A DNA stretch of 64,000 bases from Methanohalophilus halophilus (GTDB lineage: Archaea; Halobacteriota; Methanosarcinia; Methanosarcinales; Methanosarcinaceae). The DNA lies in the NCBI RefSeq assembly GCF_001889405.1, contig NZ_CP017921.1, positions 572,057-636,056 of the forward strand, read 5' to 3'. Shown here one piece after another: positions 17,431-27,756 of this stretch. A program made the position numbers and the translations under genes. Under the pieces are notes generated by a model. The model ran no database searches. It was not told the DNA's origin and saw nothing but the letters and a program-made list of their open reading frames with translations. The first letter of the stretch is position 1; each line of letters starts with the position of its first letter.

Positions 17431-17832
17431 GTGGCAACAAAGAGATGGACCTGTAGTAGGACAACTGTGTACAATATAGGGTATCACTTGATATGGTGTC
17501 CCAAATATCGCAGAAAAGTTCTCGAAGAACATATCCAAAACAGACTAAGGGAACTGTTGTTAGAAAAAGCCTATGAAATCGGGATAACAATAGAAAAGAT
17601 GGAGGTCCTTCCAGATCATGTGCATTTGTTTGTGAAATCCCCGCCTACAGCAAGTCCACACTGGATAGTTCAGCAATTAAAAGGCTATAGTTCAAGGATT
17701 CTCAGACAAGAGTTTCCTGAACTCAAATCGAGGTTGCCTACACTCTGGACAAGAAGTTATTATTGTGAATCGGTTGGACATATTTCGCAAAAATCCGTTG
17801 AAAAATATATCGAGCAGCAGAAGAATGTATGA
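17431..17832 (+). CDS. tnpA: TnpA, IS200/IS605 HUH/Y1 transposase
   Basis: A 133-residue single-strand DNA transposase. The HUH metal motif is in PDHVHLF (H-V-H) near residues 63-65, the WCPKYRRKVL signature lies near residue 23, and the catalytic tyrosine is in SVEKYIEQQ near the C-terminus. Length matches intact family members. The start is GTG. The tnpB ATG overlaps its stop by 4 bp, indicating coupled translation. Confidence 0.93.
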   Translation: MATKRWTCSRTTVYNIGYHLIWCPKYRRKVLEEHIQNRLRELLLEKAYEIGITIEKMEVLPDHVHLFVKSPPTASPHWIVQQLKGYSSRILRQEFPELKSRLPTLWTRSYYCESVGHISQKSVEKYIEQQKNV

Positions 17833-18845
17833 TATTGACCTACAAAATCAAGCATAATCGGGACTTTTCCGGACAACTCTTGAAAGCAAGGAGAATAGCC
17901 GAATATGTAGTAGCTCACAAACCGTCTTCTGCAAAATTAACTTCCAGGGATGTAAAGCATTTTGGGCTGAAATCTGTCATATCCAATCAGATTATCAGGA
18001 AATATGGACGGAATAAAAGAATAAAGAAAGTCAGTCGAGTAAATCTGATTATTCCAAATCAGGGCATACAGATTAAGGAAGATAACATCATCTATATTTC
18101 TTCTTTGAAGTTGAATCTCAAATATCAGTTTCCCGGTAACTTTGAGAAAATCAATCAGATAGAAATCAATCAAGAATATGCTTTTGTTTCTGTAACAATT
18201 CCTGAAAATACTGAATATGAACCTGAACACTGGCTGGGTGTGGACAGGAATACCACAGGACATGTAGTTGTTGCTGGTGAACCTGATAGTGGGAAGGTAC
18301 TGAAACTTGGAAAACATGCACAGCACACTCATAATAAATATAAAAATATCAGGAAGCGATTGCAGAAACAGGGTAAATACAGAAAGGTCAAACAGATTAA
18401 AAATCGGGAAAGCAGAATAGTTCGTGATTTAAATCACAAGATGAGCAGGAAAATTGTTGATACTGCCAAATCAAATAATAGCGGAATTAAACTTGAAAAA
18501 CTTAAAGGCATAAGGAAAAACCGCAAACATGCGAAATCATTCATGTACTCCTTGAACAGTTGGTCCTTCTATCAATTGCAAACAATGATAGAATACAAGG
18601 CCAGGCTGCTTGGAGTACCGGTTTCCTATATCGATCCGGCATATACTTCTCAGAAATGCAGCAGGTGTGGACATATTGGAGACAGGAATGGCAAAGTATT
18701 TGAGTGTCCTGCATGTGGACACATTGATCATGCGGATGTTAATGCAGCTTTCAATATTGCGTTATCTCCATGCATGAGTCAATCCAGTGCAGAAAGTGAT
18801 GTACTGGAAGGGAGTACTGATGCCCCTAAAGTGGCAATGGCTTGA
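17829..18845 (+). CDS. tnpB: TnpB RNA-guided endonuclease of the IS605 element
   Basis: A 338-residue TnpB. RuvC-like acidic residues are visible in order: D in WLGVDRNTTGH, E in IKLEKLKGI, and D in HADVNAAFN. A zinc ribbon of two CxxC pairs (CSRCGH and CPACGH) separates the last two. It is somewhat short compared with the typical 370-430 residues, with a reduced N-terminal region; the catalytic set is complete. The family cuts DNA guided by an RNA made from the element's right end, here expected to overlap the 3' end of the gene and the 18865-18885 hairpin. Confidence 0.9.
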   Translation: MILTYKIKHNRDFSGQLLKARRIAEYVVAHKPSSAKLTSRDVKHFGLKSVISNQIIRKYGRNKRIKKVSRVNLIIPNQGIQIKEDNIIYISSLKLNLKYQFPGNFEKINQIEINQEYAFVSVTIPENTEYEPEHWLGVDRNTTGHVVVAGEPDSGKVLKLGKHAQHTHNKYKNIRKRLQKQGKYRKVKQIKNRESRIVRDLNHKMSRKIVDTAKSNNSGIKLEKLKGIRKNRKHAKSFMYSLNSWSFYQLQTMIEYKARLLGVPVSYIDPAYTSQKCSRCGHIGDRNGKVFECPACGHIDHADVNAAFNIALSPCMSQSSAESDVLEGSTDAPKVAMA

Positions 18846-19164: not shown

Positions 19165-19300
19165 GAACTACACCACGCTTACGCATGGTGCTTCCTGCTT
19201 CATTCTTTGAACTTATGTTCACAAGTCCACAGGCTCTTCCCGTAGTTCCTACGGTGCTTCAAATGCCTATCAAATTCTGTTTATTTAAGGCAAACTTCTT
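19165..19300 (-). ncRNA. candidate right-end guide RNA (reRNA/omegaRNA) of the standalone TnpB
   Basis: In this family the guide RNA is transcribed from the 3' end of tnpB through the element's right end. Here that stretch carries two stable hairpins (19240-19254 and 19171-19190), and the guide segment would be host DNA just beyond about 19165. Position and structure fit; no expression evidence is available from sequence. Confidence 0.4.
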
Positions 19301-20380
19301 AATGTTGATTGCAGCATTGACATCTCTGTCATGAGATGCACCACAATCAGGACATTGCCATTGCCTATCTGCAAGTGTCAGGTCTTTATTGTAATATCCA
19401 CACACATTACAAATTTTAGTCGATGGCTCAAACTGCCCAATTCTCAAAATAGTTTTGCCATACCACTGTGCTTTATACTCCAACTTTGACACGAAAGAGC
19501 TCCATGAAGCATCAGAGATGGATTGAGCAAGACAATGATTTTTCAACATGCCGTTAACATTTAATGTTTCCAGTGCAATTGCTTGGTTCTCGCTTATCAA
19601 TCTGGAACTTAATTTATGCTGAAAATCATGTCTCTGATTGCTTATATTTTCATGAAGTTTTGCGATTGCTATCTTAACCTTTTCCCTGTTTTTCGAACCT
19701 TTTTGCTTTCGTGAAAGACGTTTGTGCAAGACTTTCAGTCTCTTGATTGACTTTTTCAAATTCGATGGATTTGCGATTTTGGTACCATCTGATATTATTA
19801 CAAAATCCTTGATACCTACATCTATACCCACCGTATTGTTTTCCGAAAATTCCGATTTTTTCGGGGTTTCCAGACCACTATCTACAAGAATACTAATGTA
19901 GTATTTTCCGGTAGGTGTGCGTGATACTGTAGCGGTTTTTAGGTCTCCATCTCCGTAGTGGCGGTGTAAAATAGTCTTGACGTTACCTATTTTCGGAAGG
20001 TATATCTTATTATTCTCAAAATCAACCTTGTAATTCTGAGGAACACTGTACGCCTGTACTGGATTTTTCTTTGATTTAAACTTGGGAAAACCCCTTTTCT
20101 CTCTGAAAAATCGTGTAAAGGCATTATCGAGATTGAGAGTAGCACCCTGCAATGACTGAGAATTAACGTCTTTGAGCCATTCGTGCTCTCCGTCTCTTTT
20201 CAAAATTGTAATTCCTTTATTCAGGTCAAACCTTGAGATTGATTTTCCATCCTGTTCATAGGATTTGATTTTGTTTTCCAAAGCCCAGTTATAGATGAAT
20301 CTACATGCACCAAAATGTTTATGGAACATTTCAATTTGGTTTTTGTTAGGATACATCCGGTATCGGTAGGCTTTCAGCAT
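19259..20380 (-). CDS. tnpB: TnpB RNA-guided endonuclease, standalone
   Basis: A 373-residue full-length TnpB from the ATG at 20380; an open frame continues upstream but the conserved N-terminus begins at MLKAYRYRMYPNKNQ. Order: N-terminal helix bundle with FIYNWALE, RuvC acid D in VGIDVGIKDF, a basic helix RLKVLHKRLSRKQKGS, E in IALETLNV, a zinc ribbon with CNVCGY and CPDCGA, and D in DRDVNAAINI. All catalytic and zinc residues are present, so it should be an active reRNA-guided nuclease. It is a different lineage from the tnpB at 17.8 kb. Confidence 0.93.
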   Translation of the reverse strand: MLKAYRYRMYPNKNQIEMFHKHFGACRFIYNWALENKIKSYEQDGKSISRFDLNKGITILKRDGEHEWLKDVNSQSLQGATLNLDNAFTRFFREKRGFPKFKSKKNPVQAYSVPQNYKVDFENNKIYLPKIGNVKTILHRHYGDGDLKTATVSRTPTGKYYISILVDSGLETPKKSEFSENNTVGIDVGIKDFVIISDGTKIANPSNLKKSIKRLKVLHKRLSRKQKGSKNREKVKIAIAKLHENISNQRHDFQHKLSSRLISENQAIALETLNVNGMLKNHCLAQSISDASWSSFVSKLEYKAQWYGKTILRIGQFEPSTKICNVCGYYNKDLTLADRQWQCPDCGASHDRDVNAAINIKKFALNKQNLIGI

Positions 20381-20528
20381 GCAATTAACAATTGGACTTA
20401 ACATTATATATATTTTGTACCAGATGCACGGTGTGTAGAATATGAAAGGTGGAACCATTGGTAATATAAGCAAAAAAGTTACCCAATACATCCATAATCA
20501 GGGTAAAAGTGACGCTTACATATCCAAC

Positions 20529-21612: not shown

Positions 21613-21786
21613 AATTTTTGAGAAATTGATTAGAACTGCCACAAAAAGCAAAAGTCCGGGAGTTGTAGAATGGCGAATTTGCTTTCTACAATCTTCCGGG
21701 GTAACTATTATTTTAAGAAGGATGGGGAGAAAAGATACTCCGATAAGGGCTCTGCAGATTCCTCTAACTTTCACTGGTACATTTTC

Positions 21787-22806
21787 TCATAAGAGGTCAT
21801 ATTTTGCAACCATTGCTTTTGTAATATCCATCGCAGAATATCCCATTCCTGCCAGATCCAGAAGTGCCTGGGAAGTAGATACGATACGAACACCCTCTAT
21901 TTCCAGAGTGTTCTGGAAAACTTCTCTGTCAGGCCTATAGATTATCGCCTTTATACTATTTGCCGGAGAGGATTCGAATAATTCTCTAAAATAATCTATA
22001 TACTCATCATTCAGGTATAAGTAAACTGCATCATTACGTACGCTGTAACCGGCATACAAAGCAGCTGCCGTGTATGAAGTAAAGCCGACTGGTATGTTGT
22101 GCTGCATTGAAAATGCCCGGGTAATTTCCCTTGCTGCATGCATAGATTCACTGAAGGGAATCTGGATTTCGCAACTTTTAAGGTTGGTTAGAGGACGTTC
22201 CCAAGCAATACCATTTAGCAGTTTATCGACATTAGAAATACTTACACGGTTGTTTTCCTTTTTCACAATATTCTGCTGAATAAGTGCCTGGATTGTTTTG
22301 TGCGCCCAGCCGTACGATATATCTTCACCAATTGCCAACTGCCGGATTGAAGTTTTCTTTTCTTTCAAAAGGCGGGATACTATTTTCCATGATTTGGCCG
22401 AAGTAATTCGATGGTTGCTGGGTTTGGACTGTTTTTCAGTGGCGAGTTTAATAGACCAGGGAAGTTTTACCATGGTGATGTCCAATTGGTCCATAAGCCG
22501 TTTTTCTCGTTCAGGAAAGGATTTGGCGGCAATAACCAATTGTATTTCTTTTGGGAATTTGCTTTTTAAACAGAAATCCCGAAGAAGATTTAATCTTGCA
22601 ATAACGTCTACAGTGGCTTTCGATTTAACCCCAATAAAATAGATAGTGTTATTTTCTTCTACTATTAGATCAGGATAGATAGGAAGATCCATTGCAATAT
22701 TTTCGCTTAAAGTAGTGATGTCGGTATGGAGGGATTGTGGTGAAATATCCAGGTCTTTGCGGATATGGTTTTGCACGTTGTTCCAATCAGTAGTTTCTGC
22801 ACTCAT
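21787..22806 (-). CDS. AbiEi-like regulator with N-terminal nuclease-like domain
   Basis: A 339-residue protein in three parts. Residues about 40-105 look like a PD-(D/E)xK fold core: PDLIVEENN then YFIGVKSKA, but the expected acidic residue before V-K is glycine (G59), so the site is probably inactive. Residues about 130-190 are a winged helix (IRQLAIGEDISYGWAHKTI). Residues 200-335 resemble the AbiEi antitoxin C-terminal region (TAAALYAGY, VRIVSTSQALLDLAGMG). AbiEi proteins are DNA-binding antitoxins that repress their own promoter; a perfect palindrome sits 8 bp upstream of this start. A cognate AbiEii-like nucleotidyltransferase is not adjacent, though one lies 190 bp upstream with its own regulator. 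Confidence 0.6.
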   Translation of the reverse strand: MSAETTDWNNVQNHIRKDLDISPQSLHTDITTLSENIAMDLPIYPDLIVEENNTIYFIGVKSKATVDVIARLNLLRDFCLKSKFPKEIQLVIAAKSFPEREKRLMDQLDITMVKLPWSIKLATEKQSKPSNHRITSAKSWKIVSRLLKEKKTSIRQLAIGEDISYGWAHKTIQALIQQNIVKKENNRVSISNVDKLLNGIAWERPLTNLKSCEIQIPFSESMHAAREITRAFSMQHNIPVGFTSYTAAALYAGYSVRNDAVYLYLNDEYIDYFRELFESSPANSIKAIIYRPDREVFQNTLEIEGVRIVSTSQALLDLAGMGYSAMDITKAMVAKYDLL

Positions 22807-22813
22807 CTGTAAC

Positions 22814-22831
22814 TATCACTATATAGTGATA
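22814..22831 (-). promoter_or_regulatory. palindromic operator candidate of the AbiEi-like gene
   Basis: TATCACTATATAGTGATA is a perfect 18-bp palindrome ending 8 bp before the gene start. A TATA-like TTTATATAG lies just upstream of it on the minus strand (about 22832-22840), so the palindrome would sit at the transcription start, the usual place for an archaeal repressor site. A half-site-like ATCAGTGAT recurs about 20 bp further away. Confidence 0.6.
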
Positions 22832-22914
22832 CCTATATAAACCTATCAGTGATAATCCCATATTCCCAGATAAAAGAAATATTTGCATGCACACGCATAA
22901 TCAACATACGAGTG
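22832..22914 (+). repeat. copy of the DUF234-ATPase upstream region
   Basis: From TATATAAACCTATCAGTGATAAT to ATAATCAACATACGA this stretch resembles the plus-strand leader of the ATPase gene at 24.84-24.92 kb and the leader of its remnant at 44.6 kb (shared: ATATAAAC-TATCAGTGATAAT, TTCCAGAT-A, AT-ATCAA-ATACGA). No ATPase coding sequence follows; an IS remnant does. It suggests a lost third copy. Confidence 0.45.
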
Positions 22915-22995: not shown

Positions 22996-23835
22996 TCACC
23001 TATATCTTGTATTTTGATCATGGCCTTCATCTGGTTTCAATGAAAATATTCCCTGCTTATCCTTAAGCACAACCCCTTGTTTAATAAGTTTATCAAGTAT
23101 GACCTCTACATCATTTTGATCAAGCCCATCACTAATTTCAGATATTTGCCTGGGGCTCATACTCAACCTTTCTTTGATAAAACCGATAAGCATATCTTCT
23201 TCCGCAATGTCATGCAGTCTTGCAACGATCGGATGAGTTATATGATATTTATCAAAGAAGTCTTCCACTCCATCAAAAAAGAATGCCATCCAGGCATAAT
23301 CATTTTGTTTATGCTCGTTTTGCCAGAAAAATTCTTTTTCTATTATATCAAAGTCCAGAACTTTGCTAAATAACGAATACATATCTTCCTGGTCTCTTTC
23401 TCTTGTTGTTATCGACTTAAAAACAAAAATATCCTCCGGGCATATCATATAAACAGAAACATGTTCCATTTTCAAGAGTTGAATAGAACGCTCTATCATG
23501 CCATCTGACAGCCGAAGTCCTCCACAAATAACATTAACAAAGATATCCCATCGAAACCCATCAGTATTTTCGAGTATCGAATTTGCTTCCATTTGTTTGT
23601 ATGGACCACGAACTACAGGAATGAAATAATTTAGCGACTGCAGTGCTGTTACAATAAGACCCAATTCATGGTTAGACCTTACCACGACATCAATATCTTT
23701 GGTAGCAGCTTTATATTTTTGAAAACTCATTGAGCCACCACCAATAAGATAGAGGGTTATATGTTCGTCCAATACCTCATTGAGTTTTTCAAATTCTTTT
23801 TGTAAATATTGTTTATCAAATAATTTTGAGACCAT
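22996..23835 (-). CDS. nucleotidyltransferase-fold protein, DUF6036-like
   Basis: A 279-residue protein. The N-terminal half has the minimal nucleotidyltransferase pattern of AbiEii/DUF6036 proteins: LIGGGSMSFQ (31-40) followed by KDIDVVV with two aspartates (D47, D49). A helical middle contains FKSITTRERDQEDM, a motif shared with AbiEii-type proteins (K...R.KD..D). The last 70 residues look like a small winged helix (MSPRQISEISDGLDQNDVE). It starts 13 bp after the winged-helix regulator gene and is surely in its operon. By analogy with AbiE it could be the toxin, transferring nucleotides to tRNA or protein; that is inference. Confidence 0.7.
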   Translation of the reverse strand: MVSKLFDKQYLQKEFEKLNEVLDEHITLYLIGGGSMSFQKYKAATKDIDVVVRSNHELGLIVTALQSLNYFIPVVRGPYKQMEANSILENTDGFRWDIFVNVICGGLRLSDGMIERSIQLLKMEHVSVYMICPEDIFVFKSITTRERDQEDMYSLFSKVLDFDIIEKEFFWQNEHKQNDYAWMAFFFDGVEDFFDKYHITHPIVARLHDIAEEDMLIGFIKERLSMSPRQISEISDGLDQNDVEVILDKLIKQGVVLKDKQGIFSLKPDEGHDQNTRYR

Positions 23836-23848
23836 GTATATGCACTCC

Positions 23849-24766
23849 TTATTGTATATCTTTTACCAAGTCGATGAATTCGCTCCATGGAAGAAGAAAA
23901 CTACTATTTTTTTCCTTATCCTGTAAATATTCCTGAAGGATTTTAGCATGATCTTCCATATCATACATTTTACCAAATTTTACCAGTCCTGCAGAACCTG
24001 TTTTTAAGTAAAGGGCCAACGCATAAGAATTATATATTGAACTATGGGGATCTATCAAGATCGTGTGAAGCACGTAATCTTCAACTTTAAGATCTCTTTT
24101 ACTGTAAAAATAATATCCCATGTCACTTATGACCTTCAGACTATATTTTGGAAATATACTCATTGCAGTAGGTTGTATCGATTCTTTTTTCACCGGATTA
24201 TCTGAATTAATAAAATCGGTATCGATTTTGAACAAAAATTCCGGCCCTCTTTGCCAGATCAAAACAGCATTTGGAGAAATCTCTTTCAGGATTTTATTTG
24301 TCCTATATTTCCAATAGTTATCAACAAATCTTCTAATAAAAGAATGCCGTTCACTAAAAAAATATTTCTTGTTTTTTTGCAGGATTATTCCATATTTTGT
24401 GAGTTCTTCAATGGCAGATGCCACCGTTTTTCTATTCAATCCGGTTTTTGTAACAACATCACTGATCGAACATGAATTATTCAAAACTGCCAGAATATGT
24501 AGTGCTGAATTTGTAAGGATTTTTTTTAGTGGCAGACGAGGATATTCAATGAGGATATCCTCCAATGACCTAGAATGCAGTGATTCAGAACGAGTTACGT
24601 AGGTATACCGGCCTTGATTTTGTTTTACAACAAAACCGTCTTCAACGAGTGAATTTATGGATTTGGAAATTGTGGAATGATCCAGATTCAGAAGTGTTGA
24701 TAACTCGGATATGGATCTCGAATGAGTTAGATGTTTGAATATTTGTATTTTAGTTAAATTCAGCAT
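23849..24766 (-). CDS. tandem winged-helix regulator paired with the nucleotidyltransferase
   Basis: A 305-residue protein with two winged helices: residues about 5-60 (ISELSTLLNLDHSTISKSI) and 85-140 (ISDVVTKTGLNRKTVASAI), followed by a 160-residue C-terminal domain of unclear type with FVDNYWKYRTN, VLIWQRGPEFLFK and LHTILIDPHSS. The layout is that of an autoregulating antitoxin. It is first in a two-gene operon with the DUF6036-like gene, behind an inverted repeat overlapping the TATA region (24781-24806). A decayed copy of its promoter and start occurs at 14.55 kb. Proposed as the antitoxin of a type IV AbiE-like module; not proven. Confidence 0.65.
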   Translation of the reverse strand: MLNLTKIQIFKHLTHSRSISELSTLLNLDHSTISKSINSLVEDGFVVKQNQGRYTYVTRSESLHSRSLEDILIEYPRLPLKKILTNSALHILAVLNNSCSISDVVTKTGLNRKTVASAIEELTKYGIILQKNKKYFFSERHSFIRRFVDNYWKYRTNKILKEISPNAVLIWQRGPEFLFKIDTDFINSDNPVKKESIQPTAMSIFPKYSLKVISDMGYYFYSKRDLKVEDYVLHTILIDPHSSIYNSYALALYLKTGSAGLVKFGKMYDMEDHAKILQEYLQDKEKNSSFLLPWSEFIDLVKDIQ

Positions 24767-24806: not shown

Positions 24807-24937
24807 TAAAATTGGACATTTTATCGCTCAGGGTGTAGTGACACTATATAAACTTATCAGTGATAATACTCTTTCCAGATTCAGAAAAATCTCCAGCCAC
24901 AAACATTATCAATATACGAAACACAATCATAATAAAC

Positions 24938-26356
24938 ATGTTTCGTAAATTTGTGGATCGGGGCGAAGAACTCAATTCCCTGGAAAAAGAGTATGCAAAC
25001 GGCGGATTTTCCTTCACGGTAATCTACGGCCGGCGCAGGATTGGTAAAACCGAATTGATAACACATTACATCCGGGATAAGCCGCATATCTATTTCCTGG
25101 CAGACCTTAGGGGCACCTCCTCCAATGTCGAGAGGTTTAGAAAGAGGGCTGCAGATTTTTTTGATGATTTCGAACCCCGTGTGGAGGGCTTTGACGGTGT
25201 CTTTGAGTATATCGCCAAAAAGTGGGACAGAGAAGAAAAACTGGTGGTGGCAATCGATGAATTTTCCTATCTTGTGCAGCAGGACGGTTCCATTCCTTCA
25301 GTCTTCCAGTTGATAACCGACGAAATACTCAGAGAAAGACCCGTTCATCTAATCCTGTGTGGCTCTTCGATTTCTATGATGGAAAAAAGTACCCTGGCCC
25401 ATTCCAGTCCCCTCTATGGCAGACGCACCGGCCAAATTCAAACAAAACCAATCCCTTTCAGGAATATTCAGCAATTTTTCCCGGATATATCATTGGAAGA
25501 ATGCATGCAGATCTATGGAGTGACAGGCGGGATTCCCTATTACCTATTGTTCTTTGATCCGGAAAAAGAATTTGTCGCAAATCTTGAAAACAATGTGTTT
25601 GCCACGGATGCGGTGCTCTATGAGGAAAGCGATTTTCTGCTGCGGGAGGAGATCAGGGAGCCGGCAACTTTCATGAATATCCTGCATGCTATTGCCACAG
25701 GCGCATCCAGACCTGCAGAGATTGCCACCAGAGCATATCTTCAGCCCAAGGATCTTTCCTATTACTTGAAGATGCTTATGAAACTCGGGTTTGTAAGCAG
25801 ACAACATCCGATTGCAGACAAACCTGCCACAAAAAAGACCATTTACAAGTTGGAGGATAATTTCCTGAGATTCTGGTTTCGTTTTGTATTGCCTCACAAA
25901 GATGAACTGGAGCCGGGAAATGTAGTGCCTGCACTGGAGGATATAAAAAAGAATTATGATCGTTTTCTGGGGATGACTTTTGAAGATGTAGGCAAAGAGG
26001 CATTGATCCATCTCAACTCAGCAGGCAAACTGCCCTTCACTTTTCGCAAGATCGGCAGACAATGGGGCAAAATTGCTGCAGCTACCAGGGGAAAAAATGA
26101 TTACGAGATAGATCTTGTGGCCCTTAACGCAGAATCCCGGGATATCCTGTTCTGCGAATGCAAGTGGCAGAAGCAAAAGGTTGGACCGGATGTGTACTAT
26201 TCCCTGAAAGAAAAGGGCGGCTTTGTGGACTGGCATCCTGAAGGCCAAAAACATTTCGCCCTGATAAGCCGGGCAGGTTTTACTTCCCGGATGCGGGAGA
26301 TTGCAGAGGAAGAGAAAGTGATTCTGATTGATCTGGCAGATATGATTAAGGGATGA
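24938..26356 (+). CDS. archaeal ATPase (Arch_ATPase/DUF234 family)
   Basis: A 472-residue ATPase from the ATG at 24938, where the family's N-terminus (MFRKFVDRGEELNSLEK) begins; an in-frame upstream start at 24860 would add 26 unlikely residues. Walker A is GRRRIGKT (31-38), Walker B is VVAIDEFSYL, then LCGSSISMM. The C-terminal DUF234 part carries a PD-(D/E)xK-like core: DYEIDLVAL followed by LFCECKW. The family is expanded and mobile in archaea; function unknown. An internally deleted remnant lies at 44.6 kb and an orphan leader at 22.85 kb, so the locus has been copied within this chromosome. Confidence 0.9.
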   Translation: MFRKFVDRGEELNSLEKEYANGGFSFTVIYGRRRIGKTELITHYIRDKPHIYFLADLRGTSSNVERFRKRAADFFDDFEPRVEGFDGVFEYIAKKWDREEKLVVAIDEFSYLVQQDGSIPSVFQLITDEILRERPVHLILCGSSISMMEKSTLAHSSPLYGRRTGQIQTKPIPFRNIQQFFPDISLEECMQIYGVTGGIPYYLLFFDPEKEFVANLENNVFATDAVLYEESDFLLREEIREPATFMNILHAIATGASRPAEIATRAYLQPKDLSYYLKMLMKLGFVSRQHPIADKPATKKTIYKLEDNFLRFWFRFVLPHKDELEPGNVVPALEDIKKNYDRFLGMTFEDVGKEALIHLNSAGKLPFTFRKIGRQWGKIAAATRGKNDYEIDLVALNAESRDILFCECKWQKQKVGPDVYYSLKEKGGFVDWHPEGQKHFALISRAGFTSRMREIAEEEKVILIDLADMIKG

Positions 26357-27256: not shown

Positions 27257-27529
27257 TCAGGATTGATATTTCCGATAGATTGTTTTACGATCCCCAACTT
27301 CTACAATAAATATTAACATTCTATTGTTTTCGATTGTCAAGATGACTCTATATTCCCCAACCCGGTGAGAATATAGAGGTTGTTTACCTATGCCTTTCAA
27401 TTTTTTTATGTTACAATAGGGATCGTTTTTCAATTCTTCTATTGAACTGATTATGCTCTCACTTACAGTTATAGATAGTTTTTTTAACTGTTTCAATGAT
27501 TTGTTTGTATAGATTACGTCGTAACTCAT
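27257..27529 (-). CDS. RelE/ParE-family toxin
   Basis: A 90-residue protein of the RelE/StbE superfamily: SLKQLKKL near the N-terminus, YCNIKKLKGIG, then the RVGEYRVILTIENNRMLIFIVEVGDRKTIYRK-type core (R-V-G-x-Y-R-V, V-x-x-V-G-x-R), with the C-terminal Y/R typical of ribosome-dependent mRNA interferases. Its ATG overlaps the stop of the antitoxin gene by 4 bp. A complete type II toxin-antitoxin pair. The toxin is expected to cleave mRNA at the ribosome when the antitoxin is degraded. Confidence 0.87.
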   Translation of the reverse strand: MSYDVIYTNKSLKQLKKLSITVSESIISSIEELKNDPYCNIKKLKGIGKQPLYSHRVGEYRVILTIENNRMLIFIVEVGDRKTIYRKYQS

Positions 27530-27756
27530 AACAAACCAAGCTCTTTCTTGACCTCATCTTCACTATAGGTCCTACCCATTTTGATGTCTTCCAAAGCTTC
27601 TTCAATGTCCTGAATAGCTTCATCACTTAGTTCATCCTCGTCGATTGCCATCCTGGTTAATCTCTCGATTACAGAATTAAAGGATTCTTTTGGGTATTTT
27701 TTTAGAACTTTAAGTTTTTCTTTTGTTTGCGGATCCACACAGATAGTAGTTGCCAT
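27526..27756 (-). CDS. antitoxin of the RelE-like pair
   Basis: A 76-residue protein: the N-terminus (ATTICVDPQTKEKLKVLKK) resembles archaeal RelB/VapB-type antitoxins, the middle has NSVIERLTR, and the acidic C-terminus (EEALEDIKMGRTYSEDEVKKELGLL) is the usual toxin-wrapping helix ending in the K-x-x-L-G motif. It precedes and overlaps the toxin gene by 4 bp, the normal order for autoregulation by the antitoxin-toxin complex. Confidence 0.85.
   Translation of the reverse strand: MATTICVDPQTKEKLKVLKKYPKESFNSVIERLTRMAIDEDELSDEAIQDIEEALEDIKMGRTYSEDEVKKELGLL

Follow-up and report, generated by a model that had tools for sequence, protein, structure and literature searches.

The P0001 locus and its domain layout

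The stretch of DNA studied here (the window, 64,000 nucleotides, G000:C1:572057-636056) belongs to the single-contig 2.02-Mb genome of Methanohalophilus halophilus. Its gene P0001 is preceded by two palindromes around a presumed TATA box and is followed by the stub of a second gene, while P0002 and P0003, which form a neighbouring module, sit upstream (Table 1).

Table 1. Features of the P0001 locus, in positions of the window
Feature	Position	Strand	Basis or remark
P0001, 339-aa AbiEi-like putative antitoxin/repressor with N-terminal NucS-like domain	21787..22806	-	ORF and translation, homologues
NucS/EndoMS-like PD-(D/E)xK domain, residues 7-118 of P0001	22453..22788	-	fold, profile, Pfam
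Winged helix, residues 132-205 of P0001	22192..22413	-	structure comparison
AbiEi-like nucleotidyltransferase-fold domain, residues 219-339 of P0001	21790..22152	-	structure comparison
9-codon stub of the deleted nucleotidyltransferase gene	21771..21800	-	start codon 21798-21800, 14-nt overlap retained
Second operator palindrome, 18 bp, TATCACTATATAGTGATA	22814..22831	.	just upstream of P0001 start codon; conserved
Presumed TATA box TTTATATA between the two palindromes	22834..22841	-	position conserved
First operator palindrome, TATCACTGATA on minus strand	22844..22854	.	conserved
P0002, DUF6036 nucleotidyltransferase of the neighbouring module	22996..23835	-	
P0003, winged-helix regulator with HVO_2833_C domain	23849..24766	-	
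P0003's own inverted repeat adjoining its start codon	24781..24806	.	seen by eye
Second operator copy: TATA box and first palindrome, second palindrome degenerate	24845..24865	-	

P0001 contains PDLIVEENNTIYFIGVKSK with the core PDLIVEENN...YFIGVKSK, and an earlier note on this DNA had claimed a glycine at residue 59 within the PD...GxK core of a PD-(D/E)xK fold, with a winged helix and an AbiEi-like C-terminus behind it. The glycine is indeed found in the reading frame, as the codon GGG at 22630-22632, and the fold prediction agrees with the claimed domains. In the full-length model (22-row alignment, mean pLDDT 70.9), EndoMS/NucS takes Foldseek's top four rows with E-values of 0.0097-0.016, all Foldseek E-values for the P0001 models being above 0.001, and the direct structure comparison of residues 7-118 with NucS (2vld_A) gives Z 10.1 and rmsd 2.8 over 98 residues. 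By sequence, a search of the PDB with P0001 alone gave nothing useful; a profile of 45 homologues found NucS at E 0.0067 and its alignment puts the ExK strand of the family onto the ExK strand of NucS, and Pfam NucS_C matches 8 of the 45 homologues with a best E-value of 1.4e-5. Since the whole-model structure search was dominated by winged helices, residues 128-339 were modelled separately (pLDDT 93); this C-terminal part compares with MenT1 at Z 10.4 and with the solved AbiEi 6y8q at Z 8.7 over 102 residues, and other nucleotidyltransferases match too. Structure comparison also places the claimed winged helix. No AbiEi model of Pfam names the putative antitoxin, and the AbiEi models of PADLOC give weak matches to single members of the family.

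A conserved operator at the promoter and its copies

The perfect 18-bp palindrome that the earlier note had pointed out at the promoter is the only perfect even palindrome of this length in the window. By itself such a palindrome is weak evidence, since a first-order Markov model yields 0.4 of them per window on average, with at least one in 30% of 60 simulated windows; it becomes significant because of its conservation in 58 of 60 operon-type loci. In fact it is one part of a module with the pattern TATCAnTGATA-N12-TATCAN8TGATA, where N12 includes what we take to be a TATA box. At its 20 fixed positions the module has no mismatch in 45 of the 60 loci, one in 12 and two in one, the exceptions being G569 with four mismatches and G056, which is cut by the contig end, while the spacer is 12 nt long in 56 loci and 11 nt in three. 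Among 1,200 shuffled upstream stretches, none came closer than four mismatches. A chance palindrome is thus ruled out by the conservation (0-2 mismatches in 58/60), not by its own rarity. The operator is absent in four diverged homologues, which have no partner gene. Moreover, the module is present twice or more in many promoters, often 43 bp apart; upstream of one homologue (L095, in G303) four modules stand in tandem.

The first palindrome adjoins the TATA box and the second spans the expected start region, and from these positions a bound protein should block initiation. AbiEi and Rv2827c are likewise described, in the passages of PMC7319586 concerned, as acting on inverted repeats in their own promoters.

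The strict pattern TATCASTGATANNTTWAWRTA has two matches in the window's genome, both in the P0001-P0003 cluster (reversed control, none), which rules out a wide regulon of this pattern in that genome; the looser TATCASTGATA occurs there at six places, four of them outside the cluster. Across the 111 family genomes the strict pattern gives 19 matches in 13 genomes, which by their positions we assign to 15 family promoters, two sites before P0003 and two places without an antitoxin gene. Operator copies with no antitoxin gene behind them are seen in L197 (G033:C1:73252) and L196 (G108:C107:8445), and they are probably remnants.

As for the copy before P0003, the upstream regions of 16 P0003 homologues were collected and 15 were usable (L129 was excluded for its internal start); among these 15, TATCACTGATA occurs only in the window and in G033, a genome of the same genus, besides the start-adjacent repeat. 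A third operator copy, L197 of G033, lies in flanks similar to those of the second copy, and the flanking sequences suggest that the P0001 promoter was duplicated around an inserted P0003-P0002 pair. The chances seem about even that the second copy is just a non-functional relic of this insertion into a duplicated promoter and not a control site: its flanks resemble those of the P0001 promoter in G033, the right half of its second palindrome is degenerate in both the window and G033, and the third copy stands without its gene elsewhere in G033. Against this, its first palindrome and TATA box are the same in the window and in G033 but for one base of the spacer, whereas the P0001 genes of the same pair have a dS of 0.46.

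Several other genes lie around. An ATPase_2-DUF234 protein (24860-26356, plus strand) is divergent from P0003, and the second operator copy coincides with the start annotated for it. At 27257-27756 on the minus strand, a gene for a ParE/RelE-type toxin is accompanied by a small antitoxin-like gene (Pfam ParE_toxin and DUF7557/VAPB_antitox), so that the region holds several toxin-antitoxin-like modules. On the other side are a transposase of IS200 type next to a TnpB-like gene (17431-18845, plus strand) and a second TnpB-like gene, which stands alone (19259-20491, minus strand).

The nucleotidyltransferase partner and its loss

In an initial comparison of 45 loci, 38 encode a nucleotidyltransferase of about 250 aa directly downstream of the P0001 homologue and on the same strand, with some of these genes broken. 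In each of the 34 full-length pairs, exactly 14 nt are shared between the end of the first gene and the start of the partner, and all 34 full-length partners bear AbiEii-type motifs I-IV as searched by regular expression, with the motif definitions taken from passages of PMC3985639. The Pfam AbiEii model matches 20 of the 34 at E-values up to 0.1 (best 2.8e-5) and leaves 14 unmatched, its score being below the model cut-off in the partner member tabulated; the PADLOC and NCBIfam models do not name the partner, and its profile matched no PDB chain by sequence. P0001 homologues are present in 23 of 111 family genomes and, by profile, in 39 of 392 phylum genomes, two sets that overlap. Carriage by plasmids or viruses was considered and rejected, as no match was obtained in the plasmids, phages and viral contigs searched.

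In the window the partner is missing. Downstream of P0001, bases 1-127 of the sequence compared pair with 1-127 of L002, a locus like that of M. profundi, and bases 111-1175 pair with 891-1951, that is, about 780 bp including the partner gene are absent relative to L002. The junction, about 17 bp long and located at roughly 21780-21796, resembles both borders, and the partner profile has no match elsewhere in the genome.

We surveyed such decay in 64 loci, 60 of operon type and four diverged; at two of the former the partner runs off the contig. The 58 assessable partners comprise 45 intact, 12 broken and one absent, the last being that of the window, and the antitoxin frame is open at all 13 loci whose partner is broken or absent. 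The reverse case, a broken antitoxin with an intact partner, is seen once (G527). These counts are biased, for the loci were found by antitoxin search, and six of the 12 broken partners (G008, G470, G477, G487, G560 and G566) are near-complete pieces in draft genomes that could be sequencing errors; the remaining ones are larger losses, including that in the single-contig genome G043. A search from the side of the partner in 343 genomes gave 41 matches that span 235 or more of the 250 positions (20 in the 111 family genomes and 21 in 232 order genomes), and every one of them lies at an antitoxin locus. The one-sided decay and the lack of stand-alone full-length partners in these genomes are what one would expect from a toxin-antitoxin dependence.

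The NucS-like domain and the proposed function

Across the 60 operon-type homologues, residue 59 is E in 51, G in three, Q in three, D in two and K in one; residue 61 is K in 43 and residue 46 is D in 59. The idea of a glycine fixed in the family, which the earlier note wished to see surveyed, is therefore ruled out, and Glu59 is kept even in G033 (L004). The three glycines are those of the window and two other Methanohalophilus genomes, both of which retain the partner gene. Gly59 is also found in all four members (4/4) of the diverged clade without partner and operator (L081-L084, in G136, G145, G118b and G127b), three of which also share two further gene families, clusters 7 and 8, as neighbours. 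On the maximum-likelihood tree of 64 rows, the Glu label needs eight changes and the Gly label two; thus Gly59 seems to need two origins, though the branch of the diverged clade is long and its placement unsure.

The D-(D/E)-K triad is complete in 38 of the 60 operon-type and none of the four diverged homologues; it fails in the window by Gly59 and is incomplete in 16 of the 45 operons with an intact partner. For residues 41-120, six pairs of four Methanohalophilus genes give a dN/dS of 0.17-0.31, compared with 0.13-0.24 for the whole protein, and purifying selection continues in the Gly59 genes; hence the domain is maintained although its nuclease activity looks dispensable, as judged from the sequences. 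The earlier note had pointed out that pseudo-nuclease domains in regulators can become DNA- or ligand-binding modules, an idea to be given up here if homologues retained glutamate or if the fold were another one. The PD-(D/E)xK fold stands and glutamate is retained in most homologues, so that the glycine is no family mark, while for the family the idea gains support because Glu59 or Lys61 has been replaced in many lineages with the domain retained. It is rather unlikely that members with a complete triad have a working nuclease domain and that Gly59 is simply a recent loss in three Methanohalophilus genomes: the complete Glu59-Lys61 in 38 of 60 and D46 in 59 of 60 would still allow some members to be active nucleases, and they are set against the incomplete triads beside intact partners and the continued selection on the Gly59 genes.

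We consider it likely, as the best explanation, that P0001 is the orphan antitoxin and autorepressor of an AbiE-type (DUF1814-like) operon of Halobacteriota, whose partner has been deleted and whose NucS-like domain is a binding or sensing module. This explanation builds on the folds, the operon structure, the conserved operator, the deletion and the motifs described above, from which we infer the activities as follows. The winged helix would bind the TATCA/TGATA half-sites flanking the TATA box, and occupancy of the operator would block the operon's own promoter and so repress it; the AbiEi-like C-terminus would neutralise a presumably toxic nucleotidyltransferase encoded by the overlapping second gene. 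In the window's genome, the deletion of this second gene across a short imperfect repeat would have left an orphan repressor, which may still control itself and possibly also the P0003-P0002 module carrying the operator copy. The NucS-like domain would then act by binding or sensing and need not be a nuclease.

A bolder proposal, which we put forward as improbable, takes the NucS-like domain as a sensor of infection or damage and the orphan P0001 as retained to regulate a second nucleotidyltransferase module that has captured its operator; mismatched, branched or broken DNA, when bound, might release the winged helix from the operator or free the nucleotidyltransferase, which would make an archaeal abortive-infection switch reading DNA structure. 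Equally doubtful is a regulator outside toxin-antitoxin function, namely a ligand- or DNA-sensing repressor of a nucleotidyltransferase from another pathway such as RNA modification, as the diverged clade and the window, which keep the regulator without the partner, are outweighed by the motifs I-IV in 34/34 partners, the AbiEi and MenT fold of the C-terminus, the patchy distribution (23/111 family genomes) and the one-sided decay.

If the orphan antitoxin explanation is right, several Halobacteriota families have a system of AbiE type that goes unnamed by the PADLOC, Pfam and NCBIfam models searched, whose antitoxin has repurposed a repair-nuclease fold and whose operator is the same from family to family. 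With so conserved an operator the regulation can be tested directly, while the one-sided decay of toxin genes would serve as a natural test of addiction; in the window, an orphan antitoxin stands beside a candidate for its new target.

Compared with the type IV toxin-antitoxin system AbiE (AbiEi COG5340 and AbiEii DUF1814-COG2253, from passages of PMC3985639 and PMC7319586), the family has the same order of antitoxin gene first and nucleotidyltransferase second, the same winged helix with a nucleotidyltransferase-fold C-terminus, repeats in its own promoter, and motifs I-IV in the partner; AbiEi itself is described in a passage of PMC7319586 as resembling antibiotic adenylyltransferases. It differs by an additional NucS-like domain, some 120 residues long, at the N-terminus, by an archaeal operator that straddles the TATA box, by being unnamed in the models searched, and in the window by having no partner. 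The system thus looks AbiE-like by testable structural and sequence features, with the NucS-like domain and its own archaeal operator added.

Also similar are the MenAT and COG4861-COG4849 pairs such as Rv0837c-Rv0836c, where a predicted regulator is followed by a DUF1814 nucleotidyltransferase (passages of PMC3985639, PMC7319586 and PMC3968373), and the K-L-x-A...R motif of the partner resembles motif III of COG4849. MenT1 is reported to add nucleotides to the acceptor stems of tRNA. The passages on these pairs, compared by description and not by COG profile, make no mention of an EndoMS-like domain; an assignment of our family to COG4861-COG4849 would reduce its novelty, as that pair has already been predicted in print.

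Keyword searches of the literature, covering the starts of abstracts and some passages, brought up no recognisable description of a fusion of NucS-like and AbiEi-like domains. With the mismatch endonuclease NucS/EndoMS (2vld, 5gke) the family shares the fold of the C-terminal nuclease domain and the ExK strand; unlike it, the family has no NucS N-terminal domain, its catalytic residues are often replaced, and the domain is part of a fusion with a winged helix and an AbiEi-like domain. Component 6,732, as described in the relevant passages of PMC10584680, consists of EndoMS-like proteins, some of them named AbiEi_1, and by this description its active site is invariant, unlike that of the P0001 family.
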